Shown one piece after another: positions 7,044 through 27,569 of a stretch of DNA of 34,990 bases. The notes below the pieces were generated by a model. The model was not told where the DNA came from. It did no database searches and was given only the letters and a program-made list of their open reading frames with translations. Source of the DNA: Candidatus Thorarchaeota archaeon (GTDB taxonomy: Archaea > Asgardarchaeota > Thorarchaeia > Thorarchaeales > Thorarchaeaceae); contig JAUWOA010000011.1 in NCBI GenBank assembly GCA_030612365.1, positions 1 through 34,990 of the forward strand, given 5' to 3'. The translations under genes were made by a program, and so were the position numbers. Position 1 is the stretch's first letter. The number at the start of each line of letters is the position of its first letter.

Positions 7044-10000
7044 ATGTTCGCGTCATCGAGGGGTTCCAATTCTTCTAAATCGTTTCAAAGTGTTTTCAAG
7101 CCAACTAGCCGTCCGTTTACAGTAGGACATCTCCATCTTGTTGGAGGGTTCTTAGTTGTGATGATTCTGCTAATCATGACAGCGGCGGCACTAGCATCTG
7201 GCCCATCGCAAATGGAGAATCGAATTCTGCTTTCACCTGAGGAGCATATAATGACTGAAATCTCCGGTAATCTCATTAAAACCAGTTTGCCCGATTCGTA
7301 CGCTGTGGCTGTCGGCAGGGTTGGGGGTTTCCGAGGCTTCGGTTATGTACACGATGAAGAAGATGTGTTCTACTTCGTTGATCCAGTTCAAGACAGCATC
7401 ATTAACCAATCGTTGCCGGCCAGTACAGCATCAGGCTCATTCTCTCTTATGGGGGCGGACATTGACAGTGACAACAACACCGAATTCCTCTACATCAATA
7501 GGCCACTGTCGGGTGACTGGGAACTTGTTGTTGTCGATATGGATGCAGGAAGCTGGAACAACTACTCGATGACTGGATTGATATCGCCGTCCATTGTCGG
7601 AACTGGAGACTTCAACGGTGACGGTCAAACTGACGTTGCAGTGAGAGGGGTGACTATGACACTGCTAAATCAAATACGCATGATAGACCTGCAAGCAGAA
7701 ACAACAATAGGATCATTCACAACTCCTCTAACCGAATCACTGTCTTACATCGAGGTCGGGAGATTCTCCAATCCACTAGAAGATCAGTTAGCGGTTAGGG
7801 TTGGAAGCGTCAACCTCAGCATAGTGCACGGGAATGGAACACTATCGCACAGCATTTTGCATACATCAGTCATCCGCGATATTGAAACCATAGAATACCA
7901 AGGGGAATTTGATGATGTGGCAGCTGTTGACAGCGCGGGCCGGGTAATGGTGTTCAAAGGCGCTGACCTTGTTCAGGAATACATGAATGCAGTGGGTCCA
8001 GCTACTGGGGCGTATTATCTAGGGGTAGGTACCTTCAGCAATGACACGCAGGACGATCTTGTCGTGATTTCCGACTCTAGTCAGACAGCCTATTTCGTGA
8101 ACGGGAGTGACGGGACTGTCATGCGGTATACGGAACAGATTGATGGAGGCAGCATGCGGCAAGCCACGGGATACATCGACGCTGATAATATCACAGACCT
8201 CGCAGCGCTTCGATCTTCCGGGAACCCCTGTCTAGTCAGAGGTAGTGAGGGAATCATTGCGTACACTGAAACTCTTATTGATAATCCATCGCGAGTTCTC
8301 ACATTCGATGTCAACGGTGACAGCCGCGACGATATTGTGATTGCTGTTTCTAGCGATGTCTACACTCTTCTCAGCGATGCCGACCCACCAGAACTGACTC
8401 CAGCGGCACCGTCGCCTTTGCATCCCACAGTGCTTGACCCTTTTGTTGAGCTTGAGGTTCAGGTCAATGAGGTGTCTGAGATCGAGCTGGCAAACATCTA
8501 CTTGAGGAAAACAGGCGATATGAACTGGACCCAACCTCATGATGGCATGTTCTCTTCAGAGGACGGAACCTCCTATTTCGCGTTTCTTGTAGGTTTGCCA
8601 GCAGGTCAGTATGAATACTACATGGACTTTCAAGATGCCTACCTCAATATCGCGGAATACGGTAACCAAACCAATCCGAACACGTTAGAGATGACCGGAC
8701 ATCTGGCCTGGGAGTACGAAAAATCCTCAGAGCTATTCATATCGGTTTTGACGCCCCTAATGGATCTAGGCAATCTGTCAGACGGGAGTTCTGTGCTATA
8801 CACTCTGGAACCCTCTGCTGTGGATGAGCTGCTTCTTAGTCAGTACGATACGATGGGGGCTCTGCTCAACTCTACGACTATCCCCTATCCCAGTGGATAC
8901 GGCTACGCCCTCCACACAGGACTGATTGATGATGATAATGTCCTAGACCCGGTCGTGGCGCTAACAGCAGGTGACGACACGTACGCTCATGTCCTATTCG
9001 GAAACAACTTCACACTTCACTTCATATCAGCACCATCCCCAAATTACATCAAGGGTCTTAGATACTCTGAGGTCTACGACTATGACGCAGACGGTCGTGA
9101 CGAGCTTGTCCTTCTGGATGACGCCGGGGATTACTCATTGAACTGCATGGAAACTAATGGAACATGGTCGTCAACTGCGCTAACATCGCCGACATCAAAC
9201 GAGCTGAGGCCACGATCCTACGCGATATCTACCGTTGCGACTCAAGGTAGTTACATGTGCATCGAGCGTAGCGAATCGCTGGTTGAAGTCTATCGCCTCG
9301 ACAAATTGGGCTTTGTTAGTGCCCTTGCTGTTCCGCTTGGAAGCTACACGAGTGTTGAGATAGATATCTTGACATCGTTCACCAATGGTTCTGGAATCCC
9401 CAACAGGTTTGCCATGGGATGCACCTACTGGGATGGAACAGACCCAACAACGGCCATCTTTATCTTTGACGCATCTACGACCGACCTCTCGACTGCCACA
9501 ATGTATGAAATCAGCAACATGGACCTCTCTTCACTGTACTCGTGGGACATCGATAACGATACTCTTGACGAGCTCTTCTTGCTGTCCGAGGGGGGCGAGT
9601 TGATGTTAGGTCACCTAGATACATCGATGACAATTGACTGGACTGCAAATGTCAGCAGCTCCACACTTCTTAGCTGGATGAGCGCTGACTTCGACGGTGA
9701 TTCCGAGGAGGAGATTATACTCTTCACTGATGAAGATGAGCGCCTGACCGCTGTATCAAAGCTTGGAGAAGTCGAAAGAGAGGTTAGAGTGGGTGAAGTT
9801 CACAACCCGGTTCTAATTGATAGCGTGGATCTTGGAGATGGATTGGAGATAGCATCATTCCCGTTGGTTGATCAGGGTGGTATGAAGTTCGGGGTCGTAA
9901 GAGACCTTGACTGGTTCTACAGAATGAGTGTAGTGATTGCATACTCTTCTGCTGACCTCATTCAGGGCGATCAAATGGTTGTCACCGGCAGCGTGAAGAA

Positions 10001-12083
10001 TATCTACAGTGAAACTGTCAAGGATGGTTCAGTTTACATAACAGCAACACAGAGGGCAGGAAGTACGACTCAGACATCCGGGATGCTGTACAACCGCTCC
10101 ATAGGGAACTACACAGAAACCGTGTTCGTGAACTGGATGATGGGCATCTATGATGTTACTCTGTCAGTCGAGCATACCTATTATCATGACTTGATGTACA
10201 TTGATTCAGCCGTTCTTACTGTCAGAAGCCCGCTAGAGGTCTTCGTGGAAACCGGTGACACAACCTATCAGGGTGAGAATCACTTCATTCTTGTATTCGT
10301 ATCAGATAGTCTCGATACACTGGTGACAGATGCCTTCGTAACCGTCTCAATTGAAGGACATAGCTACAATACAACTCAAGCAGGTTCATCCTATGAAGCA
10401 GAGATTGTGGATGTTGATCTAAGTCTTGGAGAGCACACCGTCATAGCTGATGTTACGCATGCGTTCGCTGTTGATGATGTAGAGGTTTCAGGTGAACTAA
10501 CAGTGCGTGGTCATGCGATGGTTTCCATTGATACGCCCACTCATCTTGCCGAGTTCGTGCAGGGGGATGATGAGATTCACTTCTCAATTCAAGTAGCAGA
10601 TACCCTAGGAAACTCCACCGCTGATGCGCGAGTAAGAATCCATATTCACGGTAACGCGTATCAGCTGGAAGACCATCATAATGGTTCATATTCGGCTTCG
10701 GTGGACACTTGGGGCTGGGCGCCAGGAATTCACAACTATAGCATTCTTGTGGACCATGACTATCTCGATTATGACATCTCGGACCCAGCCATGGGCAATG
10801 TGACAATTGTGGGAATCATCCAAGCAGAGATAGAGGTTTCCGCGGGTGCTCTCACGACAAGCGGCCAAGAAATGGAGATTCGAGGCGGTGACCCCATCCT
10901 TATTACGATCAGAGTGACTGATCGATTCGGTACCGCTCTGGATGGCTTGAACATAGAAGTGACTCTATGGGAGAACCAGACAATGCTCATGCAGGTCATG
11001 GCAACACCCGCCGATGAGATTAGCGGCAAGTATGAGGTGCTATTGGTCCTCCCAATGGAAGGATACGGTGATCGCGCAATCACCGTTCAGATTCAGGGAG
11101 AGAATGTGGAACAAAGAAACGAGTCCTACACACCTCACACGTTCTCAGTTCTGCCATACATACCACCGATGGAGATGGATGCATCAACATTCACAACATG
11201 GAGTGTCCTCATATTTGTGGTCAGTCTGGTGGGGCTCCTCATCTACTTCAAGATCATCTCATCTGTGGGCGTGAGAGATACGTCTCAGGAGGGGTTCAAA
11301 AAAGCACTGCGACATTTAGATCTGCTTTACCGATTCATTGTTGTCATGGCAATCGTTGGTCTTGGAGCGGCATTGTCGTTTGCATCGCTAGGCATGTTCT
11401 ACATCGCAATCATTCTGAGTGTCATCCTGATGGGTGCTTCAGTACTGCTCTATGGCATCTGGCTTTACAGAGACGCGAGATCAGCCGTGCTAATCGAAAA
11501 CACTCTTAGTCGAAAGAGAATGATTCTAGGACTTTGGCATCTATTCTTCGTGCCACTGGTCGTGGTGCTCATATTCTCGTGGGCAAGCCACATAGACTTA
11601 CTCCGATACTATTTGCTTGAGCAAGTGACGGTCGTGGGCTCCATTGCGATTCCGACGTTCATGACTACAATCTTTACGACATTCGTGAGCTCAATTCTTG
11701 TAGTAGTCTTCAATCTATACAAGGAGGTCAGTAGTGGTCTCAAGAAACTACAGAGCATGGAACTTGCGGGAACTCCATCTGGCGTTCTTCAAGATGAGAG
11801 GTTGTTGATGGTTGGCAAGTTTGCCTCCTCAATCAGAATCAAGTTCCTCATGTTCTTGGTCATTTTGGCTGGAACTACCGCACTCACTCTTGATTTCCTG
11901 AGCAGCTACAACATTGGTGTGCTCATCCTGGTGCCTGTTGTCTTTTTGGTGGTGATACCTTTCACATCGTCGAAGGTTCTGCAGGTCATTCAGAAAGCAA
12001 ACGTATCTGAAAGGGTTCGTGGAGCAACATCTCGGAGGCGTACAAGAAGCGAAGATACAGAAAAAGAGGGTGACTCACTCTAA
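7044..12083 (+). CDS. Very large exported/membrane protein: FG-GAP/VCBS-like beta-propeller repeats, Ig-like segments, C-terminal polytopic membrane domain
   Basis: N-terminal hydrophobic signal/anchor (VGGFLVVMILLIMTAAALASG); recurrent Ca-binding-type motifs (GDFNGDGQTDVAV, DVNGDSRDDIVI, DYDADGRDELVLL, DIDNDTLDELFLL, DFDGDSEEEIILF); several hydrophobic TM segments in the last ~280 aa. Confidence 0.85.
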   Translation: MFASSRGSNSSKSFQSVFKPTSRPFTVGHLHLVGGFLVVMILLIMTAAALASGPSQMENRILLSPEEHIMTEISGNLIKTSLPDSYAVAVGRVGGFRGFGYVHDEEDVFYFVDPVQDSIINQSLPASTASGSFSLMGADIDSDNNTEFLYINRPLSGDWELVVVDMDAGSWNNYSMTGLISPSIVGTGDFNGDGQTDVAVRGVTMTLLNQIRMIDLQAETTIGSFTTPLTESLSYIEVGRFSNPLEDQLAVRVGSVNLSIVHGNGTLSHSILHTSVIRDIETIEYQGEFDDVAAVDSAGRVMVFKGADLVQEYMNAVGPATGAYYLGVGTFSNDTQDDLVVISDSSQTAYFVNGSDGTVMRYTEQIDGGSMRQATGYIDADNITDLAALRSSGNPCLVRGSEGIIAYTETLIDNPSRVLTFDVNGDSRDDIVIAVSSDVYTLLSDADPPELTPAAPSPLHPTVLDPFVELEVQVNEVSEIELANIYLRKTGDMNWTQPHDGMFSSEDGTSYFAFLVGLPAGQYEYYMDFQDAYLNIAEYGNQTNPNTLEMTGHLAWEYEKSSELFISVLTPLMDLGNLSDGSSVLYTLEPSAVDELLLSQYDTMGALLNSTTIPYPSGYGYALHTGLIDDDNVLDPVVALTAGDDTYAHVLFGNNFTLHFISAPSPNYIKGLRYSEVYDYDADGRDELVLLDDAGDYSLNCMETNGTWSSTALTSPTSNELRPRSYAISTVATQGSYMCIERSESLVEVYRLDKLGFVSALAVPLGSYTSVEIDILTSFTNGSGIPNRFAMGCTYWDGTDPTTAIFIFDASTTDLSTATMYEISNMDLSSLYSWDIDNDTLDELFLLSEGGELMLGHLDTSMTIDWTANVSSSTLLSWMSADFDGDSEEEIILFTDEDERLTAVSKLGEVEREVRVGEVHNPVLIDSVDLGDGLEIASFPLVDQGGMKFGVVRDLDWFYRMSVVIAYSSADLIQGDQMVVTGSVKNIYSETVKDGSVYITATQRAGSTTQTSGMLYNRSIGNYTETVFVNWMMGIYDVTLSVEHTYYHDLMYIDSAVLTVRSPLEVFVETGDTTYQGENHFILVFVSDSLDTLVTDAFVTVSIEGHSYNTTQAGSSYEAEIVDVDLSLGEHTVIADVTHAFAVDDVEVSGELTVRGHAMVSIDTPTHLAEFVQGDDEIHFSIQVADTLGNSTADARVRIHIHGNAYQLEDHHNGSYSASVDTWGWAPGIHNYSILVDHDYLDYDISDPAMGNVTIVGIIQAEIEVSAGALTTSGQEMEIRGGDPILITIRVTDRFGTALDGLNIEVTLWENQTMLMQVMATPADEISGKYEVLLVLPMEGYGDRAITVQIQGENVEQRNESYTPHTFSVLPYIPPMEMDASTFTTWSVLIFVVSLVGLLIYFKIISSVGVRDTSQEGFKKALRHLDLLYRFIVVMAIVGLGAALSFASLGMFYIAIILSVILMGASVLLYGIWLYRDARSAVLIENTLSRKRMILGLWHLFFVPLVVVLIFSWASHIDLLRYYLLEQVTVVGSIAIPTFMTTIFTTFVSSILVVVFNLYKEVSSGLKKLQSMELAGTPSGVLQDERLLMVGKFASSIRIKFLMFLVILAGTTALTLDFLSSYNIGVLILVPVVFLVVIPFTSSKVLQVIQKANVSERVRGATSRRRTRSEDTEKEGDSL

Positions 12084-14308: not shown

Positions 14309-14378
14309 GGGACCCTTAAGTATAGCGGCTTTTGGCGTGTCCCTTGCGATTGTGAATCAAACTGCATCCGGCGGAACG

Positions 14379-17300
14379 CTAGTGCCGCGCCGCCTGCTGC
14401 CTTCTGTGAGACGCTATCAAGCCAAGAACCTCAGCTTCGATTTGCTCAGTCGTGTAGTGCTTGCGCTTTGCTGCTCCAGTGGGGCAGACCACCTGACACT
14501 TCCCACAACCTGTGCATAGAAGCGAGTTAACCTCTGCAAGCTGCGGCCCTTCATCTCGGTCCTTCATTGTAATAGCATCAAACGGACATACCTTCTCACA
14601 AAGCCCGCACCCAATACAGGTATCCTCATCAATCATCGCCTTGTCCATCTGTACTCGTACTATGCCCTTGAGCACATGTGATGCTGCTGCGCTTGCTGCG
14701 GCTTTTCCATCCGAAACGCATGACGGGATGTCCTTAGGACTTTGACATGTGCCTGCAATGTACACTCCACGAGCCTTTGTGTTCACTGGCTCGAGTTTCG
14801 GATGTAGCTCCTTCATGAAGCCGCCTTCGCTTCTGTCAATTCCTAGCTTGTGTGCAAGTTCTGTAGTTCCCTCCGACGGATCAACCGCCATTGTGAGGAC
14901 AACGAGATCGAAATTCAACCTGAGGAGCTGGCCTGATCCTTGGTCAAAGATTGAGAAGCTAATTGTACCGTCCTTTTCCTCAGTGAAATCGCTGGGGAAG
15001 CCTCGTACGAAACGAATACCATGCTCTCTTACTCTCTTGTAAAATTGCTCGTACTCTTTTCCGCCTGCACGAAGCTCATGATAGATTATCCATTGCTCCA
15101 TCGAGTCACCATATTCACGGTTGGTCATCTCTGCGTGCCTGAGTGTGTACATGCATCCAAAGTTGCAGCACCAAGGTCTACAACCCTCATCACGAGACCC
15201 TGCGCAATTGATGTAGGCAATGCGCTTAGGCGTTTCAGCATAATCGGGAGGAATCTTTATCTTCCCAGCCGTCGGACCGACAAGGCTCAACAACCTGCCG
15301 TACTGACCAGCGGTGATGACCCTTTGGAACTTCCCGCCACCATATTCTGGCAGCTCTTCCATACTTATCTCTTCGAACCCTGTGGCTGCGACTATCGCGC
15401 CAACAGTCAGTTCAAACACCTCTTCCTTCATGTAATGGTCAATGGCATCCTTCTGACAAGCTTCGACGCAAAGCTTACACTCGCAACAGATCGCACAACC
15501 AAGACAACGCTCAGATTCCTTGACTGCAACTTTCTCGGTGAAGCCGAGCTCCACTTCATCGAAATTAGTGGCTCTCTTCTTCGCAGGCAATTTCTTCATC
15601 CTGGCTCGAGAACCACCAGGAAGTGCATCGGGAGCAACATCTGGCGGGGGCGCTTGAGGTAGAACAAATGGCCTGCCTTCACGAAGGTCAAGGCCGCGAA
15701 GGAACCTATGAATTGATTCCGCCGCCTCATTCCCCGCACCAACTGCCTCCACAGCAAGAGCTGGACCAGTCACAAGGTCTCCACCCGCAAATACGTCATC
15801 CATGCTTGTCTGCATTGTGAGAGGATCCACATCGACAGTACCCCAACTTGTCAATTCGAGGCCTGAGTGTATTCCGTCAGGCCCCACCTTTTGGCCAATA
15901 GCGACAATCATGTCGTCAACCTTGATATCAAACTCTGAACCCGAGATTGGAATGGGGCGTCTTCTCCCTGATTCGTCAGGTTCGCCCAGCTCCATCTTAA
16001 TGCACTTCAAGCTTGACACTGCACCGTTGGACACCAGGACCTCAACAGGATTAGTAAGCAGTTTTAGTTTCACGCCCTCCTTCACTGCATCATCTATCTC
16101 GCTCTGGATTGCCGGCATCTCTGTCCTTGACCTTCGATAGACAATTGTCACTGTGTCCGCTCCGAGGCGCAAAGCGACCCTTGCTGAGTCAACCGCAGAA
16201 TTGCCACCTCCTATGATAGCGACATGCTTTCCAAGCTGGACTTTCTTACCACTATTGACGCGATAAAGGAAGTCTAGTGCGTGATGAACGCCTTTCGCGT
16301 TCTCACCAGTCAGTCTCAGTTGTGAACTTACAGGGGCACCAGTTCCGAGGAACACAGCTTTGTATCCCTGCTTCTTTAACTGTTCAATGGAATCAACCCG
16401 AGTTCCGGTAACAATCTTGACTCCATGCTGTTCCACGAAGGCAATCTCTGATTGGAGGATATCCCGAGGTAGACGATGTTCTGGAATGCCCCATCTGAGC
16501 AAGCCACCTGCCTCCTTCTTTTCTTCGAAGACCATCACTGGATATCCAAGCCTAGCAAGATACAGAGCACATGCAATCCCTGCGGGTCCACCACCGACTA
16601 CCGCTACTTGCTCTTCCTTGTCTATTGCTGGTTCAACAGCCTCAACAGATCCGCTCTCAATCTCATAGTCGTGGAGCCATCGATGAACGTTTCTGATGCT
16701 CACGCTCTTATCGTGCGTGCCTCTTTCGCACTGGTCTTCACAGAAGGCGGGACATACACGTCCCAACGAGCCGGGGAACGGTATTGCTTCTCTCACAAGA
16801 CTGAGAGCCTTATCGTACGTGCCTTCACGTGTGAGCGTAAGAAAAGCTTGACAACTAACATGTGCAGGACAGGATATCTTGCACGCGGCGTGCCCCAGCT
16901 TTTCGATTGCAAAGGCACCGGGAACTGCTTGAGGATACGGCTTGTACGTTGCTTTTCGCAAGGACATGCCAAGGTCATGCTCGTTAGGTGTAAGTACTGG
17001 ACAAACCTCCACGCAATCTCCACAGGCATTGCATTTCTCGAGGTCTATGTAACGAGGTCGCGTCCGCAGCTTGACTTTGAAGTTGCCATAGTCCCGCTCC
17101 ACATCGATTATTTCAGTACATGTGTGTATGTCGATATTCTTGCTCCTATCAATAGCGCTCAGCTTTGGCGATAGGATACACATAGAACAATCGAGAGTGG
17201 GGAATGTCTTCTCCAACTTGGGCATGTAGCCGCCGATAGCTACATTGCGCTCGATTAGATGAACCTTGATATCCTTATCAGCGAGGTCCAATGATGTTTG

Positions 17301-17783
17301 GATTCCGGAAACACCAGCACCAACAACAAGCACACTCGTTTCAACTGGATACTCTTCGAATCCTATGTCCTCTAGTAGCTTGGCGCGCTCGATTGCTCCT
17401 GAAATCAGGTCATAAGCTATTTCGTAAGCTTTCTCGGGTTCGTCACCATGAACCCATGTGTTGTGCTCTCTGAGGTTCGCCTGTGCTAATCTGAACCTAT
17501 TGAGACCCTTCTCTTCCAAGATGTCCCTGAATAGTTCCTCATGAAGCTTCGGCGTGCACGATGCTACTACAACGCCTGTAAGGTTCTGTTCCTCGATGGT
17601 TTCTGCAATTCGGACCTGCCCCTCTTTTGAGCACGTGAACATGTTCCAGGCTGATAACGCAACGCCCGGATAGTCCTCGAACTCGCTAGCGAGTTTATCA
17701 ACATCAATAACTCCACCAATGTTTGTCCCACAGCTACAGACGAATACACCAATGCGTTCTTCTGTTTTCTTCTTCTTGGGCAA
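14379..17783 (-). CDS. Giant HdrA-like polyferredoxin/flavoprotein with an inserted complete GltD/NfnB-like NAD(P)H:acceptor oxidoreductase module
   Basis: HdrA N-terminus VFVCSCGTNIGGVIDV, FAD site VLVVGAGVSGIQTSLDLADKDIKVHLIE..., TFPTLDCSMCILSPKL; middle GltD features CKISCPAHVSC...VCPAFCEDQC, VAVVGGGPAGIACALYLARLGYPVMVFE, NAD(P) site IIGGGNSAVDSARVALRLGADTVTIVYRRSRTEMPA; HdrA C-terminal part with two 4Fe-4S motifs (CIGCGLCEKVCP, CTGCGKCQVVCP). Confidence 0.93.
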   Translation of the reverse strand: MPKKKKTEERIGVFVCSCGTNIGGVIDVDKLASEFEDYPGVALSAWNMFTCSKEGQVRIAETIEEQNLTGVVVASCTPKLHEELFRDILEEKGLNRFRLAQANLREHNTWVHGDEPEKAYEIAYDLISGAIERAKLLEDIGFEEYPVETSVLVVGAGVSGIQTSLDLADKDIKVHLIERNVAIGGYMPKLEKTFPTLDCSMCILSPKLSAIDRSKNIDIHTCTEIIDVERDYGNFKVKLRTRPRYIDLEKCNACGDCVEVCPVLTPNEHDLGMSLRKATYKPYPQAVPGAFAIEKLGHAACKISCPAHVSCQAFLTLTREGTYDKALSLVREAIPFPGSLGRVCPAFCEDQCERGTHDKSVSIRNVHRWLHDYEIESGSVEAVEPAIDKEEQVAVVGGGPAGIACALYLARLGYPVMVFEEKKEAGGLLRWGIPEHRLPRDILQSEIAFVEQHGVKIVTGTRVDSIEQLKKQGYKAVFLGTGAPVSSQLRLTGENAKGVHHALDFLYRVNSGKKVQLGKHVAIIGGGNSAVDSARVALRLGADTVTIVYRRSRTEMPAIQSEIDDAVKEGVKLKLLTNPVEVLVSNGAVSSLKCIKMELGEPDESGRRRPIPISGSEFDIKVDDMIVAIGQKVGPDGIHSGLELTSWGTVDVDPLTMQTSMDDVFAGGDLVTGPALAVEAVGAGNEAAESIHRFLRGLDLREGRPFVLPQAPPPDVAPDALPGGSRARMKKLPAKKRATNFDEVELGFTEKVAVKESERCLGCAICCECKLCVEACQKDAIDHYMKEEVFELTVGAIVAATGFEEISMEELPEYGGGKFQRVITAGQYGRLLSLVGPTAGKIKIPPDYAETPKRIAYINCAGSRDEGCRPWCCNFGCMYTLRHAEMTNREYGDSMEQWIIYHELRAGGKEYEQFYKRVREHGIRFVRGFPSDFTEEKDGTISFSIFDQGSGQLLRLNFDLVVLTMAVDPSEGTTELAHKLGIDRSEGGFMKELHPKLEPVNTKARGVYIAGTCQSPKDIPSCVSDGKAAASAAASHVLKGIVRVQMDKAMIDEDTCIGCGLCEKVCPFDAITMKDRDEGPQLAEVNSLLCTGCGKCQVVCPTGAAKRKHYTTEQIEAEVLGLIASHRRQQAARH

Positions 17784-17784
17784 T

Positions 17785-18699
17785 CTACCGCACCTCCAGC
17801 TTTCCCCGAATCGGGCTAGGTCCCAGATTCTGGATTTTCTCAGTGAACTCTTTCACGATGTCAGCGAATTTTATGCCCATGGCCGCGGACGCGGAGTCAA
17901 TATGAATTCTGCCGCCCATGCCAATCTCTTCAAGAATATCCATCCAGAACTTTACGAAGTCGTACTGCATGAAATTACCAGCCTTTGGGCTATCTCCTCC
18001 ATAATGACACTCTGAAAGGAGACAACCTGTCAACAAGACCCCATCGACTCCGTTCTCCAGTGCGGTCATGATGTGCATGGGTTCAATCGCGCCAAGACAT
18101 GGTATTCTAATAGTTCTGATATTCGTGGGATAGTGCAAGTGCATAAGACCTGCCAGGTCGGCCGCGGCATGCGAGCATTCCCAACACACAAAGCACAGTA
18201 TGAATGGCTCCCAGTCTTTGCTCACAGTGATTGACGGAGGCGGTTTCACCTCGCCGATTATCTCGGGCAGCTTGTAAGTCTTCTCCAACGTAAGGCAGTC
18301 CTCAAGGCAGGCCTCAATGCATTTGTCGCAAGCAATGCACCGGTCTGCAGCCCATGCAATAGAACCGTACCCAGGGAGTCCATCAGGAACCGAGATGGCC
18401 ATTACATCGCCCTCTTGCCTAAGTCCTTGTAGGAGGGTCACGAGAGATTCTCGGTTCTTGGACCTGAAACCGTCGTGTGGAATTGTAGCCGTCAAGTAGT
18501 CGGGAAGATTCATCGTTGGATCCATGTCCAACGCAGCAGGCTCGCAAGCTAGAATGCACTTCTTGCAAGCACTACACGTTTGTGCGGTGTACTTGATGGT
18601 TCCAAAGCCTTCAACCTTCTCAGGCACTTCGATGTCATTTTCAGGCGTCTTTACAGCGATGTTCCGGATCTTTTGGATGAGCTGGTCACGTTTATCCAC
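17785..18699 (-). CDS. Ferredoxin-MvhD fusion (two 4Fe-4S motifs plus methyl-viologen-reducing hydrogenase delta-subunit domain)
   Basis: CSACKKCILACEP and CIACDKCIEACLE; C-terminal CFVCWECSHAAADLAG...RIPCLGAIEPMHIMTALENGVDGVLLTGCLLSECHY. GTG at 18699 with GGAGGTG RBS preferred over the ORF-track start 18741. Confidence 0.88.
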   Translation of the reverse strand: MDKRDQLIQKIRNIAVKTPENDIEVPEKVEGFGTIKYTAQTCSACKKCILACEPAALDMDPTMNLPDYLTATIPHDGFRSKNRESLVTLLQGLRQEGDVMAISVPDGLPGYGSIAWAADRCIACDKCIEACLEDCLTLEKTYKLPEIIGEVKPPPSITVSKDWEPFILCFVCWECSHAAADLAGLMHLHYPTNIRTIRIPCLGAIEPMHIMTALENGVDGVLLTGCLLSECHYGGDSPKAGNFMQYDFVKFWMDILEEIGMGGRIHIDSASAAMGIKFADIVKEFTEKIQNLGPSPIRGKLEVR

Positions 18700-18700
18700 A

Positions 18701-20656
18701 TTATGCCACCTCCTCCTGCATCTTGTTGGGTAACGCTGCAATCATATACGTGGCCTTTACTCGTTCAGGGTCCTGTCCTATGCTTCGCAACATGTCCTGT
18801 GTGAACTTCACAACCAGCTCAGCCATATGATCTCCTGTCTGATGATGACAACCACCAGGTGGGCAATGGGCAACAATAACGCGGTCAGCGCCCACCGTCA
18901 ACCCTTTCAGAATCTCTATTGGGGAAACCATTCCCGCACACGGGAATTGAATCACATATGTTCCGGTAGGATAGCCCTTTCCAGTGAAACCTGCAAGGTC
19001 TATCGATGCGTTTGCGCACTCACTGCATGCGTATACGAATGTGAAGGGTTTCTCGCCCTCCATCTTCTTGTGGTTTTCCGCAAGGGCTTCGAGTCTGGCA
19101 AACCATGACTCCTTGCTGTGAGATTGAAACTCAATAGCCCGCGTGGGACAAGCCGAAACACAAATGCCACAGAACTCGCAATGCTGAGAGATGTGAGTTA
19201 CCTTGCCATCCACAAGTCTCAATGCGTCATTCGGACATGCCTCAATGCACGCCTCACAGACATCACATTGCTCCTCGTCAATGATTGGGATCCAGCCTTT
19301 GCGTCGAGTGGAAGCTCGGATATCCTTGAATACTTCTAGAGCCGCATTCCCGGCGGATGCCGTCGCATCATCAATACTCATTGGCATCTTGCCATTACCA
19401 GCAATGTAGATTCCTCTCTTAGATGTCTGGACGGGCTTGTTCTTCAAGTACCGGGTCGTGATGAATCCATCTTCATCCAGACTCAACCCTGCTATTCTAG
19501 CGAGCTCAGCTGTATCGCCTCTCGGTCGAGTCATAGTTTGAAGTACTAGTAAATCAACAACAAACTCTCTAATCTGCGATTCCAGTGTATTCTCTAGCCG
19601 ACAGACCATTCCTTCCTTGGTATCTTTGACCTTCTCCAAAGTACCTCTGACAAAGATGACACCAGATTCTCGAGCGGCTCGGTAAATGTTCTCATCTTCT
19701 GTTCTTATGTTTGAATGCGCCACAATGACAGTGTTGCCTTTCTTCACAGCCTTGGTGACAACTCGAAGAAGGTAGCCGCCCTCAACAGCACAGAGATGAT
19801 GAGTTGGGTCAACTGCGACCAACACTGTCCTCACATCCTTTGGTTCTTGCTTTTCAACGAGGGTTGCAAGATCCCCAAGGAGTATCGTTCGATCAGATTT
19901 ACCATAGAGCAACTTCCTTGCCATGGGCGGCGGCTTTTGCTCAACATTGGTCGCAATAACAATCGAGCCGCAGTCAATGGTCGATATTTTCCCATCAGGA
20001 CACGCGAGGGACACGCCATACTTCCCAGCCCGACCCTTGAGCCCGGTTATGGTACAGCATATCGTCGTCGCGGATGCAGTGGCAGACACTAACTCCTTGA
20101 CCATTTTCGTGAGGGTTTCTTCATCAGCCATGAATCGGCCAGCCTCAACATAGGCTGTATCATCCCACGGACAAGGCTCAAGAATTGTTACATCAATGCC
20201 CAGGTGTAGGAGGTCCGCAGCTACCTTCAGGCCACACATGCCTCCACCGACAACTAAGACCTCCTTCTCCATATGGTTCTCCACAACTGTTGGAGGATCC
20301 ATGTGATCGACTCTGATTGCAGCATCACGCAATAGCACTACAGCCTTGTTTGAAGCGCCCTTCAAGTCGTCAGAGTGAACCCATGCCACATGCTCTCTCA
20401 AAGGCACAAAGGAAACAGACTCAGTCTTCAGTTTCTCAGACATGGGCATGCCAATAATCTGTGATGTGCAGGCTCCAACGACTACGCTGTCCTCATTGGA
20501 AACTTCTGATTCCAAAAAGGCAAGTCCTTCTTTCAGGCACAGCGCGTCGTGAATCTGAACACTGTCGAAGACGTCCTTCAGCTCCTTCTCAATGCGCAGA
20601 AAGTCTAGCTTCTTATCGAGTGTCCTGTTACAGGTACACAGAAACAGCTTCTTCAT
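18701..20656 (-). CDS. HdrA-like flavoprotein with C-terminal ferredoxin and fused MvhD domain
   Basis: VLVVGGGMCGLKVAADLLHLGIDVTILEPCPWD FAD site; GIYIAGNGKMPMSIDDATASAGNAA; CDVCEACIEACP and CEFCGICVSACP; MvhD-like YACSECANASIDLAGF...FPCAGMVSPIEILKGLTVGADRVIVAHCPPGGCHH. Confidence 0.9.
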   Translation of the reverse strand: MKKLFLCTCNRTLDKKLDFLRIEKELKDVFDSVQIHDALCLKEGLAFLESEVSNEDSVVVGACTSQIIGMPMSEKLKTESVSFVPLREHVAWVHSDDLKGASNKAVVLLRDAAIRVDHMDPPTVVENHMEKEVLVVGGGMCGLKVAADLLHLGIDVTILEPCPWDDTAYVEAGRFMADEETLTKMVKELVSATASATTICCTITGLKGRAGKYGVSLACPDGKISTIDCGSIVIATNVEQKPPPMARKLLYGKSDRTILLGDLATLVEKQEPKDVRTVLVAVDPTHHLCAVEGGYLLRVVTKAVKKGNTVIVAHSNIRTEDENIYRAARESGVIFVRGTLEKVKDTKEGMVCRLENTLESQIREFVVDLLVLQTMTRPRGDTAELARIAGLSLDEDGFITTRYLKNKPVQTSKRGIYIAGNGKMPMSIDDATASAGNAALEVFKDIRASTRRKGWIPIIDEEQCDVCEACIEACPNDALRLVDGKVTHISQHCEFCGICVSACPTRAIEFQSHSKESWFARLEALAENHKKMEGEKPFTFVYACSECANASIDLAGFTGKGYPTGTYVIQFPCAGMVSPIEILKGLTVGADRVIVAHCPPGGCHHQTGDHMAELVVKFTQDMLRSIGQDPERVKATYMIAALPNKMQEEVA

Positions 20657-21922
20657 CTAACGACCACCCTCCAAGTCAGCATACACTTTCAGTGCAATGG
20701 CATTCGCCTCCACAATACTAGTCGGTATATCCTCAGGACCTGTGGCCGTGCCACACGCATAGACACGCCCTTCTTTGATCACTCTTGACGCAAACCCGTA
20801 TTCACCCAGGAAATCTGCCAAGACCTCACTCTGACTGGCAAGTGGAGATAATGGGGATGCTAGGACCACTAGGTCAGATTCAATCTCCATCCGTTGCTGG
20901 GTCTGTGTGTCTTCAACGATTGTAGTGGGCTTGCCGTTCCTGACAACAACCCGGTCAGGCTTCCCTCTGAGGAACTTCACGCCCTTCTCTCTTGCCAAGT
21001 CCAGATAATGGTCGCTTGCTTTCTGAACGCGCAGATCCATGTAGCATATCGTCACATCGATCTCCTTGTCCCTCAGCATGTTTGCATGCTTCAGACTGTA
21101 TGTACAACAAGCTTGAGAGCAGTACTCGGTGGCTTCCAAGTCCCTACTGCCAGCGCATAATACCATCGTCACCTTCGCCGCAGCGTTTCCGGATGATGTG
21201 ATTATTTGACCGTCCGTATCACCAGCTGGATCAATCAGCCTTGCCAATTCTCTTTGAGTGATTATATCGTCAGATTCGCTGTAAGAATAGCCGGGCAAAT
21301 TGAGAGGTATCTTCTCCTCAGTGCCCGTCGCTAGAATCAGAGCATCAGCTTTAATGGTACGGGTCTTAGCCTTCTCTTCGAGATTAATCGCATCGACTCC
21401 ACAGACTTCAACGCACTTGCCACACTGGGTGCAGTGGTCCATGTCAATAAGCGGAGCGAGTGGGACACCTTGAGATACTGGTCGGTAGATTGCTTTTCTA
21501 GTGCCGCCCCGGATTGCATATTCATCTGGGATTTCAACATCGCATACATTAATGCACTCAAGGCATACAACACATCGGTCAAGAAGAACGTAGCGTGGAT
21601 GTGACTTGATAGAAACAGAGAACTTTCCATCTGCTTCAGATATTGACTTTATCTCCGTCTGAGTGTATAGCTTTAGATTCTTCTTCAACGTCAGCAGACT
21701 TCTATACTGACACCGTCGATGATGTCCATCGAACAGCTCTTCACACGCATCCAAACAAAGAGCACAATCGCCTGTGGGGTAAACACGCCCCATGTGTGTT
21801 GCAAGGCCGCCGATAATAGGCTCCTTTTCAATTAGATGAACTGTAACACCCAAGTCAGTGAGCTGCTGAGTGACTTGAATACCAGCCATACCAGCTCCGA
21901 TAACAACAGCAGTCTTTGCCAT
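20657..21922 (-). CDS. hdrA: HdrA-like heterodisulfide reductase subunit A
   Basis: VVIGAGMAGIQVTQQLTDLGVTVHLIEKEPIIGG; CVVCLECINVCDV and CTQCGKCVEVCGVDAI; CAGSRDLEATEYCSQACCTYSLKHANM; GRVYACGTATGPEDIPTSIVEANAIA. Confidence 0.93.
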   Translation of the reverse strand: MAKTAVVIGAGMAGIQVTQQLTDLGVTVHLIEKEPIIGGLATHMGRVYPTGDCALCLDACEELFDGHHRRCQYRSLLTLKKNLKLYTQTEIKSISEADGKFSVSIKSHPRYVLLDRCVVCLECINVCDVEIPDEYAIRGGTRKAIYRPVSQGVPLAPLIDMDHCTQCGKCVEVCGVDAINLEEKAKTRTIKADALILATGTEEKIPLNLPGYSYSESDDIITQRELARLIDPAGDTDGQIITSSGNAAAKVTMVLCAGSRDLEATEYCSQACCTYSLKHANMLRDKEIDVTICYMDLRVQKASDHYLDLAREKGVKFLRGKPDRVVVRNGKPTTIVEDTQTQQRMEIESDLVVLASPLSPLASQSEVLADFLGEYGFASRVIKEGRVYACGTATGPEDIPTSIVEANAIALKVYADLEGGR

Positions 21923-22840
21923 CTATGCGGCACCTCCAATTTTCTCAAGCAGCGGCCCCACTTTGACCCGATGATACCGCCTTGCATTGGATATGACCAT
22001 GTCCTTCATTCCCATCGCTATGGCCAGCAACTCTCCCAGATACAACACAGGGATGCTATACTCGGGGTCGAATTTCGCGGTTGCTTTTTTCTGCTGCATC
22101 TCCAACTGAGTGTAGCATGTCGGGCAAACTACTATGATAGCGTCTGCGCCTGATGCTCGGATTTTTTCGATTCTTTGCGCAGTGAGTGTGAATGCTTTGT
22201 CCTCATCTGAAGGCGTAATCGGAGCCCCACAGCAGGACATCTTATCTTCGAATTCCGCCACCTCGGCACCTGTGACTTCTATCAAGTCATCCATCCACAT
22301 TGGTTGCTCAGCATCGTCCATGTGAGTCGCTTCTAGTGGCCTCACAAGATGGCATCCATAGTGTGGTGCAAACTTCAATCCTGTGAGTGGGTGAGTAATC
22401 TCCTTCTTTATGCGTTCCAGCCCGACATCCCCATGAAGAACATGAAGGATATTCTTAACAGTTAGGTCTCCAGTCACCTTCAGCCCGACCGTCTTGAGCC
22501 GTTCATTGATTCTGCCCTTCAGCTTTTCATCTTCCTGAATCATGTGATTCGCAACAGCCAAAGTATGGAAACAACCACTGCAAAGAGCGACAGTTTCCAA
22601 TCCGGTGGTTTCGCTAACAGCAACATTCCTAGCAGCTAGCGTTACCCAGGCGTCGAAGTCAACTCCTGTAAACGTCGTGGGTTCCGGACAGCAGGCGTGT
22701 CCCGGGTTCGCTTCCAACTCTATGTCGAGTCTCTTCAGAACCGCTCGCGCGGCCATCTCGAAATGGGGAAGCCTAAATGGGATCATACAGCCTGGGAAGT
22801 AAGTGTAAGTCTTTGCCTTACTCATTGCTCCCGCCTCCAT
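21923..22840 (-). CDS. hdrB: Heterodisulfide reductase subunit B (two CCG domains)
   Basis: FPGCMIP...HACCPEPTTFTG...CSGCFHTL and HYGCHLVRP...SCCGAP...CPTCYTQLE: both noncubane-cluster Cys sets present. Internal ATG at 22825 is also plausible. Confidence 0.95.
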   Translation of the reverse strand: MEAGAMSKAKTYTYFPGCMIPFRLPHFEMAARAVLKRLDIELEANPGHACCPEPTTFTGVDFDAWVTLAARNVAVSETTGLETVALCSGCFHTLAVANHMIQEDEKLKGRINERLKTVGLKVTGDLTVKNILHVLHGDVGLERIKKEITHPLTGLKFAPHYGCHLVRPLEATHMDDAEQPMWMDDLIEVTGAEVAEFEDKMSCCGAPITPSDEDKAFTLTAQRIEKIRASGADAIIVVCPTCYTQLEMQQKKATAKFDPEYSIPVLYLGELLAIAMGMKDMVISNARRYHRVKVGPLLEKIGGAA

Positions 22841-23345
22841 ATACTGACTCCACTGTTTCTAACTTCTTTGCAAGCCCAATCTCCTTGAGCACACTTGCGA
22901 TTTGATCAACTGGAGGCTGACCAAGGTCGGGGAGACCCATCTTGTCCCGAGTCTTGAGCATGGATTCATTTACCATAATGGTGCGTCCACCCGCAAGTAT
23001 TGCCCTTGCCCTATCGAGAGCTCCCTGTGGCGTATTGCCCCCTACAAGGCCCCTAACCTTCGCCAAAATGAGCAGATGCGGTATCTTAACATGCTCAGGG
23101 CATCTAACCTCGCATTGCTCGCATGTCAGGCAAGTCCAGACTAGCTGTTCCTCCGTCAAGGACTCATCAGCAAGTAGAATCTTCTGAAGGAATAATCGAG
23201 GATTGAAAGAATTGTCAATCGCTGCGACCGGGCAAGCGCTGGTGCATCGTCCACACTGATAGCACCTGAGCAGCGTTTCTCCTTCGGGCTGCTCTAGAAC
23301 CCAGTTACGGAAAGCCAAGTCGGATGTAGACCTAAGTACGACCAT
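22818..23345 (-). CDS. hdrC: Heterodisulfide reductase subunit C
   Basis: CYQCGRCTSACPVAAI and CLTCEQCEVRCPEHV 4Fe-4S motifs; overlaps hdrB. Confidence 0.94.
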   Translation of the reverse strand: MVVLRSTSDLAFRNWVLEQPEGETLLRCYQCGRCTSACPVAAIDNSFNPRLFLQKILLADESLTEEQLVWTCLTCEQCEVRCPEHVKIPHLLILAKVRGLVGGNTPQGALDRARAILAGGRTIMVNESMLKTRDKMGLPDLGQPPVDQIASVLKEIGLAKKLETVESVYGGGSNE

Positions 23346-23586
23346 TGCAATTGTCCACCACTTGCTCGTCTCGGAGTGTTCGCAATCGAACCAAAGGTGT
23401 ATTTTAGCTCACCGATTGCTACATGACTTGACTGAATGCTTCCGAAGGCTTACACCCCATAACCAAGTATGTCGATAATTAATAGTGCATTGCAACAAAG
23501 TAAGAGAAACGTGACATCAATCTGAAAGTGAAAGAATCCTAAAAGGAACATCCAGAGATTGAAAGGAACAAGACACGTTTCCCAGC

Positions 23587-24876
23587 CTACGTGCGTCCAC
23601 TGGTTTCAGTGACATGACAGGAACAGCTAATGCATGGATCATACGCTCTAATGAGTCGATTCAGATAGAGCTTGATCTCGTCAGGAGGTTTGCTACCTAT
23701 CAGGGGGAAAAAGGCTCTTACATCTTCCTCCATGTTGACGTAGTTCATCGTCGTAGGAGCTATAATATCCGCCTTCTTCAGAAGACCGTTCTTATCGAAC
23801 TCATATGAATGCAACAACGAGCCGCGTGGGGCCTCAGCGATATGGGTACCCCGCCCGCCTCTAGGCACAACCTTTGGTTCATGCCACTCCAAGTCGCTGC
23901 TCAGAAGCCCATCTATGGTCTGTTCAGTCATCTCGAACACCTGCGCACACTCTATGAGCTGAGCAGCGTTATTGTGGAAGGTATTGTAACTTGGCAGCTT
24001 GATTCCCAACTGTTTGAGTGTCTTTTTCGCAAATGGTAGTAAATGGTCGTTGTTAATATTGAGGCGTGCAAGAGCGCCAACGAAAAAGCCACAGCCATTC
24101 ATCGTTCCAGCCTTGGCAAAGCTATAATCTGGCACATATTCCTTAATGTAACTCTTGTAGTCCTCTACAGGAGCCCTAAGCCCGCCAAGTGTGGCGATAT
24201 CGCCATCAACCAAAGCGTATTCATCCTCTCTGCGAATGCACAGATAGTCGGTTTTTCGCTCGAAGGGGATCTCCTCAAGGGTAGCCCAAACGTCGATTGC
24301 GGTTTGTAGCTTGGGGCGAGACTCCTTAATCCTCTCTTTCATATGCTCAAGATCTTGATGTGTGGGGTACGCGCTGAACCCGCCAACCATAGGCGTTACT
24401 TGGTGTACCTCACGGCCACCGGTCAGTATCTGCATGTCGTTGCCGAGCTTTTTCAGTTCCAAAGCGATTTTCACAACATCTGGATACTCCGCAGCCGCTG
24501 AAATCACACTCTCGTGACCGATATAGTCAGGAAGCGCCAAGTACAGTGCATGCAGAATGTGCGACTCGATATACTCGCCCCAGACAAGGAGCTTTCGAAG
24601 ATTGGTGTCCTGTTGATCCACTTCAATTCCCATGGCCTTTTCCACAGCCCTCGTGGAAACCAATCTATGAGATGCGCTGCAGATGGCACATATGCGGCAA
24701 GCTATCTCCGGAACTTCGGTGTATTCCCGACCTACTAGAAAAGCTTCGAAGAGTCGAGCACCCTCATCGACAGACATTTTGACATCTTCAAGCTTGCCAT
24801 CTTTTGTGGTAACGTACAGGGAACCATGCCCTTCAACGCGTGTTATGTGTCTGATCTCGATTTTCTCTGTTGCCAT
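23587..24876 (-). CDS. hydA: NiFe hydrogenase large (alpha) subunit, group 3b/sulfhydrogenase type by context
   Basis: ITRVEGHGSLYV; N-terminal RICAICSASH and C-terminal DPCISCSCH NiFe ligand motifs; hydBGDA gene order. Confidence 0.95.
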   Translation of the reverse strand: MATEKIEIRHITRVEGHGSLYVTTKDGKLEDVKMSVDEGARLFEAFLVGREYTEVPEIACRICAICSASHRLVSTRAVEKAMGIEVDQQDTNLRKLLVWGEYIESHILHALYLALPDYIGHESVISAAAEYPDVVKIALELKKLGNDMQILTGGREVHQVTPMVGGFSAYPTHQDLEHMKERIKESRPKLQTAIDVWATLEEIPFERKTDYLCIRREDEYALVDGDIATLGGLRAPVEDYKSYIKEYVPDYSFAKAGTMNGCGFFVGALARLNINNDHLLPFAKKTLKQLGIKLPSYNTFHNNAAQLIECAQVFEMTEQTIDGLLSSDLEWHEPKVVPRGGRGTHIAEAPRGSLLHSYEFDKNGLLKKADIIAPTTMNYVNMEEDVRAFFPLIGSKPPDEIKLYLNRLIRAYDPCISCSCHVTETSGRT

Positions 24877-25649
24877 CAGAAATTCAACTCCTTAAACTCC
24901 GGCGCATCAGCCACGACAGGACAATACTTGAGGAATTTCCGTTTGATGTCATCATCCGTGGCTCCCATCTCTTTCAGTATCTTGTACTCTGCCCCCCAAT
25001 TGACCTGGGCAACAGGCCCGCGACAACCCTCGCAGGTCGCTCCGTAGGTGGGACAGATTGCTCCACACCCTGCTGATGTAACGGGACCCATGCAGAACTT
25101 GTTCTCTTTCAGGAGACATGCATTCTCGCGAATCTTGCATTCGTAACAAACCGCATAGTTGGGGATGTTAGGTGTCTTTCCTACAGCCAACGCTTTGACA
25201 GTCCTGATGAACTCGTCCTTGTCCATTGGACATCCTGGCAGCTCATGATCCACGTGAACATAGTCAGCGACTCTCTTGATGGGGATGACATCCAAGTGGT
25301 CATTCTTCTCGCCGTAGACGATTCGCTTCATCTCATCGATATCTTGGAAGTTCCTCATTGCCGGAAGCCCGCCATGGGTGGCACATGTGCCTATTGCCAC
25401 GAGTATTCTAGAGTTCTCTCGTATCGTCTTTATCCGCTCTACTTCCTCTTGCTTGGCTATTGACCCCTCCACAAAGGCGATGTCCCATGGGCCCTTGCTG
25501 TTTTCTGACTTAACCATCCTCCAAGTGGTTATATCTATGAGTTCAAGAAGCTCAAGCAGGTGGTCCTCTATATTGAGAATATTCAACTGACACCCAGCGC
25601 ATCCTGTGAATCCAAAGATGCCAACGGTTGGCTTGCCGTTGTCACCCAT
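24876..25649 (-). CDS. hydD: NiFe hydrogenase small (delta) subunit
   Basis: GFTGCAGCQLNILN; VAIGTCATHGGLPAMRN; LPGCPMDKDEF; CYECKIRENACLLKENKFCMGPVTSAGCGAICPTYGATCEGCRGP. Confidence 0.95.
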   Translation of the reverse strand: MGDNGKPTVGIFGFTGCAGCQLNILNIEDHLLELLELIDITTWRMVKSENSKGPWDIAFVEGSIAKQEEVERIKTIRENSRILVAIGTCATHGGLPAMRNFQDIDEMKRIVYGEKNDHLDVIPIKRVADYVHVDHELPGCPMDKDEFIRTVKALAVGKTPNIPNYAVCYECKIRENACLLKENKFCMGPVTSAGCGAICPTYGATCEGCRGPVAQVNWGAEYKILKEMGATDDDIKRKFLKYCPVVADAPEFKELNF

Positions 25650-26501
25650 CTAGATGGCCTCCTGGAGCCTCTGCACCTCAGAGAATGTGAACACAGGACC
25701 GTCAATACATGTCAGCTTGTGCCCTATCTGGCAATGAGCACACTTCCCTACTCCGCACTGCATCTTGCGTTCCAGTGACAAGAGAATGTCATCTCCCTTG
25801 AAGCCTAGCTTCATCAGGTCCTGCACAACGAACTTGTACATGACAGGTGGACCACAAATCATCGCTACAGTGTTCTCAGAAGCTACCTTGCATACGTCAA
25901 ACAAGCAAGTGACAACACCTACGTTTCCCTGCCACGTTTCATGACACTCGTCAACAGTCTGGTGCATCTCTACATCTGCAGCATTGGGCCAAACGTTCTC
26001 CAGCTCATCTACAAAGACTCGTTCGTCTGGAAGGCAGGCACCGTAGAAGATTGTGACCTTGCCATAGTCATCTCGCTTGTCCACAACGTAGTTTATGACA
26101 GATCGTAACGGAACCATGCCGATTCCGCCTGCGATAAAGAGCAAGTTCTTCCCGCAAAGCTTGTCAATTGGGAATCCATTTCCATACGGACCCCTGATGC
26201 CAACCACGTTGCCAACATTGAGATTGTGTATAGCATCTGTTACGTCCCCAGTCTGTCTTATTCCAAGCTCCAGATTGCCCGGTCTGGTTGGTGTCGAGCT
26301 TACGGAGAATGGAGCTTCACCAATGCCGAAGATGCTGACTTGCACGAACTGGCCAGGGCTATAGGTGAAGTACTTGCGGACATTGTTATCAAGAAACTCG
26401 AACTCGAATAGACTCTCCATTTCAGTCAGTTTGGTTTTTTTCACGAGTTTCGCCAGATCGGGCAGGTACTCGTTCGTTCTAGTCAATGTAATCTGCACCA
26501 T
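25650..26501 (-). CDS. hydG: Sulfhydrogenase gamma subunit: FAD/NAD(P)-binding reductase with 2Fe-2S motif
   Basis: APFSVSSTPTRPGNLELGIRQTG; LLFIAGGIGMVPLRSVI; ICGPPVMYKFV; CGVGKCAHCQIGHKLTCIDGPVF. Confidence 0.94.
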   Translation of the reverse strand: MVQITLTRTNEYLPDLAKLVKKTKLTEMESLFEFEFLDNNVRKYFTYSPGQFVQVSIFGIGEAPFSVSSTPTRPGNLELGIRQTGDVTDAIHNLNVGNVVGIRGPYGNGFPIDKLCGKNLLFIAGGIGMVPLRSVINYVVDKRDDYGKVTIFYGACLPDERVFVDELENVWPNAADVEMHQTVDECHETWQGNVGVVTCLFDVCKVASENTVAMICGPPVMYKFVVQDLMKLGFKGDDILLSLERKMQCGVGKCAHCQIGHKLTCIDGPVFTFSEVQRLQEAI

Positions 26502-27569
26502 TTAGCCCCCTTTCACAACTGGTGCCCCGACCCATCTCTTCTGGAGCTCGTAGGCCACATCCTTGACACTTATGCCCGCAGGGCAGTGCTCAATACATCT
26601 TCCGCATCCCGTACACGCAATAATACCGTGATCGTGCAGAGCGCCTCTGATCTTGTGGTAGAATCGATGCTTCAGTCTGGCAGAAGGATCCCCTCTGAAG
26701 TTATGAGGCCCTGCCACTAGTGCGAAGTCATGATACAGACAGGTGGACCATTTCCGTGTTCGATCAGCGCCGCTGAGGGAGAGGTCAAGCTCGTCAGCGA
26801 CATCATAGCAATAGCATGTTGGACACACTAGGGCGCATGAGCCGCAGTTCATGCACTCCTCGCCCAGTCTGACCCAGATTGGGTCATCCCAAGCCATGTC
26901 AAAAGTTTCGTTGATGTTGTCCAGGTGAAGCCCAACTGGCAGGGACTTATGCTTGTGTTTCATTGAGGTCTTGAATGCCTTGTGCCCCTCATCGGTGGCT
27001 TCTCCTAATAGCTTGTCAGCTATCGTGAGCAGGCGATCTCCTTTGGGAGAGCCAACGTGCACGTAGTATTTGTCACCTGCGATGGGAGTCAAGTAGAGGT
27101 CATAGCCTTCGTTCACCATGTGTGTATTAACCGATTTGCAGAAGCCATACTTGCAGGGATCTATGCAATTGAGCCCAATTATCGTCGTATTCTCTCGTCG
27201 TGCCACATAGTATGGGTCTACGTACTTCCCTCCAAAGACTTTGTCCAAAAACAATAGCGCGTGGATGTCACAGGCATGCACACCCACAAGCAATTGGGGC
27301 CGCTCCGCCTTGACATCTGGCAGAGAGTCGTCTATGGACATCTCCCGCAGGTTGAAGCGCATCATCACTTCTTTTGAAGGTATGAAGAACTTCTTCAGCG
27401 ACATCATTGTGTTGTCATAGTCCATATCGATGCGATTGGGGTCATCGATCTTGTCGAATACCCAAGTTGTACGGCGTTGGACTGGTCCATAAACATCATA
27501 CTCGTCCATTGCAGCTTGGACCAGCTTGAGCAGATTACTCCTCTTCATTATATAGGTTGGACTCATCAA
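26502..27569 (-). CDS. hydB: Sulfhydrogenase beta subunit, 4Fe-4S protein
   Basis: PQLLVGVHACDIHALLFLDKVF; CMNCGSCALVCPTCYCYDVADEL; CTGCGRCIEHCPAGIS. Start may be the internal ATG at 27548. Confidence 0.93.
   Translation of the reverse strand: MMSPTYIMKRSNLLKLVQAAMDEYDVYGPVQRRTTWVFDKIDDPNRIDMDYDNTMMSLKKFFIPSKEVMMRFNLREMSIDDSLPDVKAERPQLLVGVHACDIHALLFLDKVFGGKYVDPYYVARRENTTIIGLNCIDPCKYGFCKSVNTHMVNEGYDLYLTPIAGDKYYVHVGSPKGDRLLTIADKLLGEATDEGHKAFKTSMKHKHKSLPVGLHLDNINETFDMAWDDPIWVRLGEECMNCGSCALVCPTCYCYDVADELDLSLSGADRTRKWSTCLYHDFALVAGPHNFRGDPSARLKHRFYHKIRGALHDHGIIACTGCGRCIEHCPAGISVKDVAYELQKRWVGAPVVKGG

Follow-up and report, generated by a model that had tools for sequence, protein, structure and literature searches.

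We focus here on ten consecutive minus-strand genes at 14379-27569 of the window, a stretch of 34,990 nucleotides that forms an entire contig (C88) of a Candidatus Thorarchaeota metagenome-assembled genome (MAG; G000 in our set, 88% complete, in 188 contigs). Four of them, hydBGDA, encode a [NiFe] hydrogenase and the other six encode proteins of the heterodisulfide reductase (Hdr) type. The locus is probably best read as two independent redox cassettes, a group 3b hydrogenase and a six-gene Hdr module, that adjoin in one chromosomal slot. An earlier note had placed ten open reading frames (ORFs) at these positions. All ten are present there, and Pfam, NCBIfam and PDB searches bear out their identities, with domain matches far stronger than chance would give. 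The note had also joined the ten genes into one redox supercluster, a unit that does not hold up in the relatives: of 11 genomes with the hydrogenase, 10 are without the Hdr module, and of 13 with the Hdr module, 12 are without this hydrogenase. The features are as follows.

26502..27569, minus strand: hydB, 4Fe-4S beta subunit of the group 3b hydrogenase (Fer4_22 5e-30; ShyB/HydB; sulfhydrogenase 1 beta 5e-59)
25650..26501, minus strand: hydG, FAD/NAD(P)/2Fe-2S gamma subunit (NAD_binding_1, DHODB_Fe-S_bind; sulfhydrogenase 1 gamma 3e-65)
24876..25649, minus strand: hydD, small (delta) hydrogenase subunit (Oxidored_q6 9e-27; ShyD/HydD)
23587..24876, minus strand: hydA, [NiFe] catalytic subunit (NiFeSe_Hases 1e-32; best PDB match, Pyrococcus-type sulfhydrogenase alpha)
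23346..23586, minus strand: hydA-hdrC spacer, 241 bp
22818..23345, minus strand: hdrC, two 4Fe-4S clusters (CoB_CoM_SS_C 1e-20)
21923..22840, minus strand: hdrB, two complete CCG motifs (CCG 2e-31; CoB_CoM_SS_B 6e-82)
20657..21922, minus strand: HdrA-t, a truncated HdrA (alignment to 5odc)
18701..20656, minus strand: HdrA/MvhD fusion (MvhD/FlpD 7e-26; alignment to 5odc)
17785..18741, minus strand: ferredoxin (Fd)/MvhD fusion, two 4Fe-4S motifs and FlpD/MvhD (FlpD 5e-36)
14379..17783, minus strand: type III HdrA, the giant, 1134 residues (Pyr_redox_2 and Fer4_20; PDB matches)
15489..16892, minus strand: GltD/NfnB-like insert, residues 298-765 of the giant
14342..14361, minus strand: imperfect short repeat TTTGATTCACAATCGCAAGG, similar to TTTGGTTCGATTGCGAA near 23379-23395

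First of all, the two halves are distributed separately. Across 47 genomes of the family, HydA orthologues (at least 75% identity) are present in 11, one of them partial, and HdrA/MvhD orthologues (at least 56% identity) in 13, and both halves co-occur only in the window genome; in the phylum, HdrA/MvhD is found in 14 of 228 genomes, all but one of which lie within the family. Second, the halves share one site, with an SSB-like gene at one flank and a response regulator (RR) at the other, in a comparison for which not all flanking genes were found in each relative. hydBGDA occupies this site alone in G004, of the same genus, and in eight genomes of other genera (G022, G011, G012, G013, G016, G026, G007 and G023), and the six Hdr genes occupy it alone in G006, G005 and G001, all of the same genus, the G005 and G001 loci each being assembled from two contigs. 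The ten-gene order is thus not conserved: the tandem was seen only in the window genome, and the halves are separate in most relatives. Third, neighbouring ORFs abut or overlap throughout the locus, the sole sizeable gap being the 241 bp from hydA to hdrC, and the spacers can be followed between genomes. Positions 1-220 of the extracted window hydA-hdrC spacer match the hydA-RR spacer of G004 at 80%, and the rest of that G004 spacer matches the window spacer between the HdrA-GltD gene and the RR gene at 84%; similarly, the SSB-hdrC spacer of G006 resembles SSB-hydB at its start (72% over 75 bp), and its end matches the final 143 bp of the window hydA-hdrC spacer at 76%. Read as matching deletion scars in single-cassette relatives, these similarities are consistent with a real tandem state. 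A single ten-gene operon was rejected on distribution and spacer scars. Statistical avoidance between the cassettes was also considered and rejected, since the one genome with both, against three expected, is not a significant deficit (Fisher p = 0.15) and the count is confounded by lineage.

The spacers also carry possible regulatory and historical signals. The block CGGTGAGCTAAAATACACCTTT, at about 23393-23414 and some 50-70 bp upstream of hdrC, is near-identical in relatives that have no hydrogenase upstream; its retention there makes it a candidate promoter element of the hdr genes and points to a separate transcription unit. The imperfect repeats TTTGATTCACAATCGCAAGG and TTTGGTTCGATTGCGAA flank the Hdr cassette, with one copy in a hydrogenase-only relative, a pattern that is suggestive only. 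As the hydrogenase is at the site in all outgroup genera, the hydrogenase appears to be the older occupant, and a likely history is that the Hdr cassette was inserted next to it within this genus, after which one cassette or the other was lost or exchanged. At 7044-12083, on the plus strand, the window also encodes a 1679-residue FG-GAP repeat protein; G022 and G023 have related FG-GAP proteins close to this site, whereas the stretches extracted from G006 and G016 showed none.

Compatible with two cassettes is a metabolic link, in which separate complexes would draw on a shared NADP(H) pool, one making NADPH that the other uses. Characterised group 3b enzymes are NADP-linked. The GltD insert of the Hdr module has GGGNSA together with YRR, which is NADP-type by a published criterion (PMC12054007); most genomes with one half are nevertheless without the other, so such a link is not required, and we regard it as possible but short of probable. 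A rival claim is that of one functional unit, in which the hydrogenase docks on or directly feeds the Hdr complex to give a hub for H2, NAD(P)H, ferredoxin and a disulfide. The halves do adjoin on the same strand, both are tied to NAD(P)H, and other Hdr complexes are known to recruit hydrogenases via MvhD. Against such a unit, however, speaks their co-occurrence in a single genome out of 47 in the family, with either half found by itself in relatives whose completeness reaches 96-99%, as do the role of HydBG, which already acts as the hydrogenase's electron partner, and the 241-bp gap with an upstream block that hdr retains without a preceding hydrogenase; we thus consider one unit very improbable. 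A chimeric assembly that joined a hydrogenase strain to an Hdr strain is equally improbable. Although the tandem occurs in just one MAG and a spacer part of ~40-80 bp is common to both strain types, this part is only ~75% identical between them, too low for k-mer joining, the scars in both spacers fit a real tandem, and the flanking genes are in order on either side.

Within the two-cassette reading, hydBGDA would encode a [NiFe] hydrogenase of the ordinary NAD(P)-linked group 3b kind, ancestral at the site within the family. The group 3b assignment of the earlier note is supported by the NCBIfam families and by the closest PDB chains of HydA, HydB and HydG, which are of the Pyrococcus-type sulfhydrogenase I. 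HydA has nickel ligands at both ends, RICxxC (RICAIC) and DPCxxC (DPCISC), and is accompanied by HydB, HydG (FAD/NAD(P)) and HydD, as expected of this group. The NCBIfam matches of the locus, to sulfhydrogenase HydABGD/ShyABCD and to HdrA/B/C families, all fall under the curated cut-offs, so these products are divergent family members; Rfam and tRNA scans gave no match.

The window genome has a second, distinct group 3b hydBGDA on contig C45, 31-43% identical to that of the window. In every one of the 10 loci examined, which come from several genera, genes of the C45 type stand head-to-head with a gene for a ~1034-residue HdrA-HdrA fusion (L069 5167-9226 and 3-3029, on C45; L093-L101). This conserved 3b/HdrA neighbourhood is better evidence of a link than the window, and if any group 3b hydrogenase partners HdrA in Thorarchaeota, the C45 locus is the first candidate.

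The six-gene Hdr part is a conserved module whose HdrA proteins differ in the features that they keep (residues are numbered as in Methanothermobacter wolfeii HdrA, 5odc). HdrA-t keeps Cys197, the inserted Fd domain, the Cys386/399/403/404 cluster and K409, is without the N-terminal and C-terminal Fd domains, and has Ala at position 356 with Glu at 354. HdrA/MvhD keeps the N-terminal Cys11/13/46/71 and the C-terminal Fd, and has lost Cys197, the inserted Fd domain, the Cys386-404 cluster and K409. The two are thus complementary, the N-terminal domain being in one and Cys197 in the other, as they are in the C87, C2 and C31 modules of the window genome and in the G032 and G006 copies. Such complementarity has been read as an HdrA heterodimer (Chadwick et al. 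2022, PMC9012536), and we infer that HdrA-t and HdrA/MvhD form an asymmetric heterodimer feeding HdrCB. Because HdrB retains both CCG motifs, a substrate of the disulfide type is plausible. The TTG start of Fd/MvhD at 18741, which runs 41 bp into the gene before it, probably lies too far upstream.

No group 3c hydrogenase (MvhA/MvhG) lies beside the Hdr module in the relatives examined. Elsewhere in the window genome, contig C87 carries an Mvh-Hdr-like cluster (L064 2753-12868). Its short HdrA-GltD, of 921 residues, has K409 and E356, and it further comprises hdrC, hdrB, two genes for HdrA, mvhD and hydrogenase genes of the MvhG/MvhA-like type. A MAG labelled as Heimdallarchaeota (HM4_B41, L084 7199-11320) holds a copy of the module that shares 61-78% identity with that of the window, with its HdrA/MvhD cut at 424 residues, which adjoins the same DNA-alkylation gene as in Thorarchaeota HM6_B34 and may represent either a binning error or a transfer.

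The earlier note had given the Hdr half its own NAD(P)H-type module, and Pfam, NCBIfam and PDB matches locate this in the GltD insert of the giant. The giant is a complete HdrA (1-295, 766-1124) whose inserted ferredoxin domain is interrupted by GltD (298-765). Its closest PDB matches are methanogen HdrA (5odc, 8rvu) and GltD/NfnB-type proteins. By this architecture it belongs to the already known type III HdrA, with inserted GltD, described by Lyu et al. 2025 (PMC12054007); ANME-1 HdrA9-11 likewise carry an NfnB-like insertion (Chadwick et al. 2022, PMC9012536). Searches of open-licence papers yielded no description of a Thorarchaeota HdrA that bears GltD. K409 is replaced by Arg and E356 by Gly in the giant, in its G068 counterpart and in a GltD-less orthologue; all nine published type III sequences keep both residues, an observation and not a definition of the type (PMC12054007). 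Across the Thorarchaeota set, nearly every GltD copy combines YRR with GGGNxA, GGGSAA or GGGDAA, which is NADP-type by the criterion of Lyu et al. 2025 (PMC12054007), and from its GGGNSA and YRR we infer that the giant prefers NADP(H).

GltD appears to behave as a plug-in, movable NAD(P)H port. Orthologues of the giant without GltD, of 672-688 residues, are found in G032, G019, G027, G059, G065 and G066, and a GltD-less orthologue is 66-69% (N-terminal part) and 75-77% (C-terminal part) identical to the giant. In the trees, the HdrA core of the giant is sister to these orthologues (support 100), whereas its GltD is nested among the GltD of short HdrA-GltD paralogues (support 100/99). This disagreement favours transfer of GltD; its loss from the GltD-less copies together with a replacement is a less favoured possibility. 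hdrC2-hdrB2 follows five of the six GltD-less copies (the G027 module is decayed), and in G066 (L052 2539-4549) and G065 (L049 12991-14998) genes for EtfA, with a 4Fe-4S cluster, and EtfB stand directly after hdrC2B2, possibly as an electron transfer flavoprotein (ETF) link of the GltD-less module; neither hdrC2B2 nor EtfAB follows any of the GltD-bearing copies examined. Similarly, in the C2-type paralogous Hdr module a scaffold protein of unknown family contains a ~470-residue GltD in G001 and G035 and is without it in the window genome and G006 (L065 399-2681 versus L086 3-3329). We tentatively propose, while thinking it somewhat less likely than its alternatives combined, that Asgard Hdr complexes pair an asymmetric HdrA core with an exchangeable port: GltD would move among HdrA and non-HdrA scaffolds, take the place of HdrC2B2(-EtfAB) and switch the complex between NADPH and another carrier, the HdrA flavin of the giant, its bifurcation residues lost, serving only as a relay.

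In the two-cassette reading the giant would be the NAD(P)H port, with NAD(P)H reducing its GltD flavin, from which electrons would travel through 4Fe-4S clusters and Fd/MvhD, enter the HdrA heterodimer and continue to HdrCB. The inserted ferredoxin domain of HdrA-t would be the ferredoxin port, and bifurcation, if any, would be placed on HdrA-t because it alone of the three HdrA proteins has K409. The sequence would fit equally well with flow the other way, in which confurcation produces NAD(P)H. Complex formation, path and direction are all read here from gene content, gene order, residue patterns and trees.

Several points weigh against this overall picture. The tandem is known from one MAG contig only, and support of 52-71 at key nodes of the genus tree is too low to polarise G004 between Hdr loss and an Hdr module never present. 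The AlphaFold monomer of HdrA/MvhD is poor (predicted template modelling score 0.49), and that of the giant is unusable (predicted local distance difference test 38, nine sequences). The loss of K409 and E356 makes the flavin role of the giant unclear, and bifurcation is uncertain since E356 is lost in HdrA-t too.

H2, NAD(P)H and ferredoxin coupling in Asgard archaea, relatives of the eukaryotic ancestor, has been argued mainly from lists of genes. At this locus gene neighbourhood alone proves misleading, as two cassettes share one slot and are swapped among close relatives. Furthermore, the copies with and without the GltD insert, and with and without HdrC2B2, form a natural series, which makes an NAD(P)H-port role testable on closely related protein pairs.

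Compared with known systems, the hydrogenase resembles the group 3b sulfhydrogenase HydBGDA (SHI) of Pyrococcus in gene order, four subunits, best PDB matches and nickel ligands, and differs in being divergent, under NCBIfam cut-offs. The Hdr module shares HdrC, HdrB, HdrA and MvhD parts and cluster motifs with the methanogen HdrABC-MvhADG complex (5odc); unlike that complex, it is without MvhAG and has its HdrA functions split over three proteins. In the tandem heterodimeric pairs HdrA5/6 and HdrA12/13 (PMC9012536) the partner likewise has Cys197 and no N-terminal domain, whereas in the window one partner is extended by a C-terminal MvhD, and the giant is present as a third HdrA that is complete in itself. 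Finally, published type III HdrA and HdrA9-11 have a GltD/NfnB-like domain of ~470-500 residues at the same position as the giant, with NAD(P)H as the proposed partner. The published type III proteins come from ANME-1 and Bathyarchaeota and keep K409 and E356; the Thorarchaeota giant, on the other hand, has Arg and Gly, possesses insert-free orthologues, and carries a GltD that groups with that of another HdrA paralogue.
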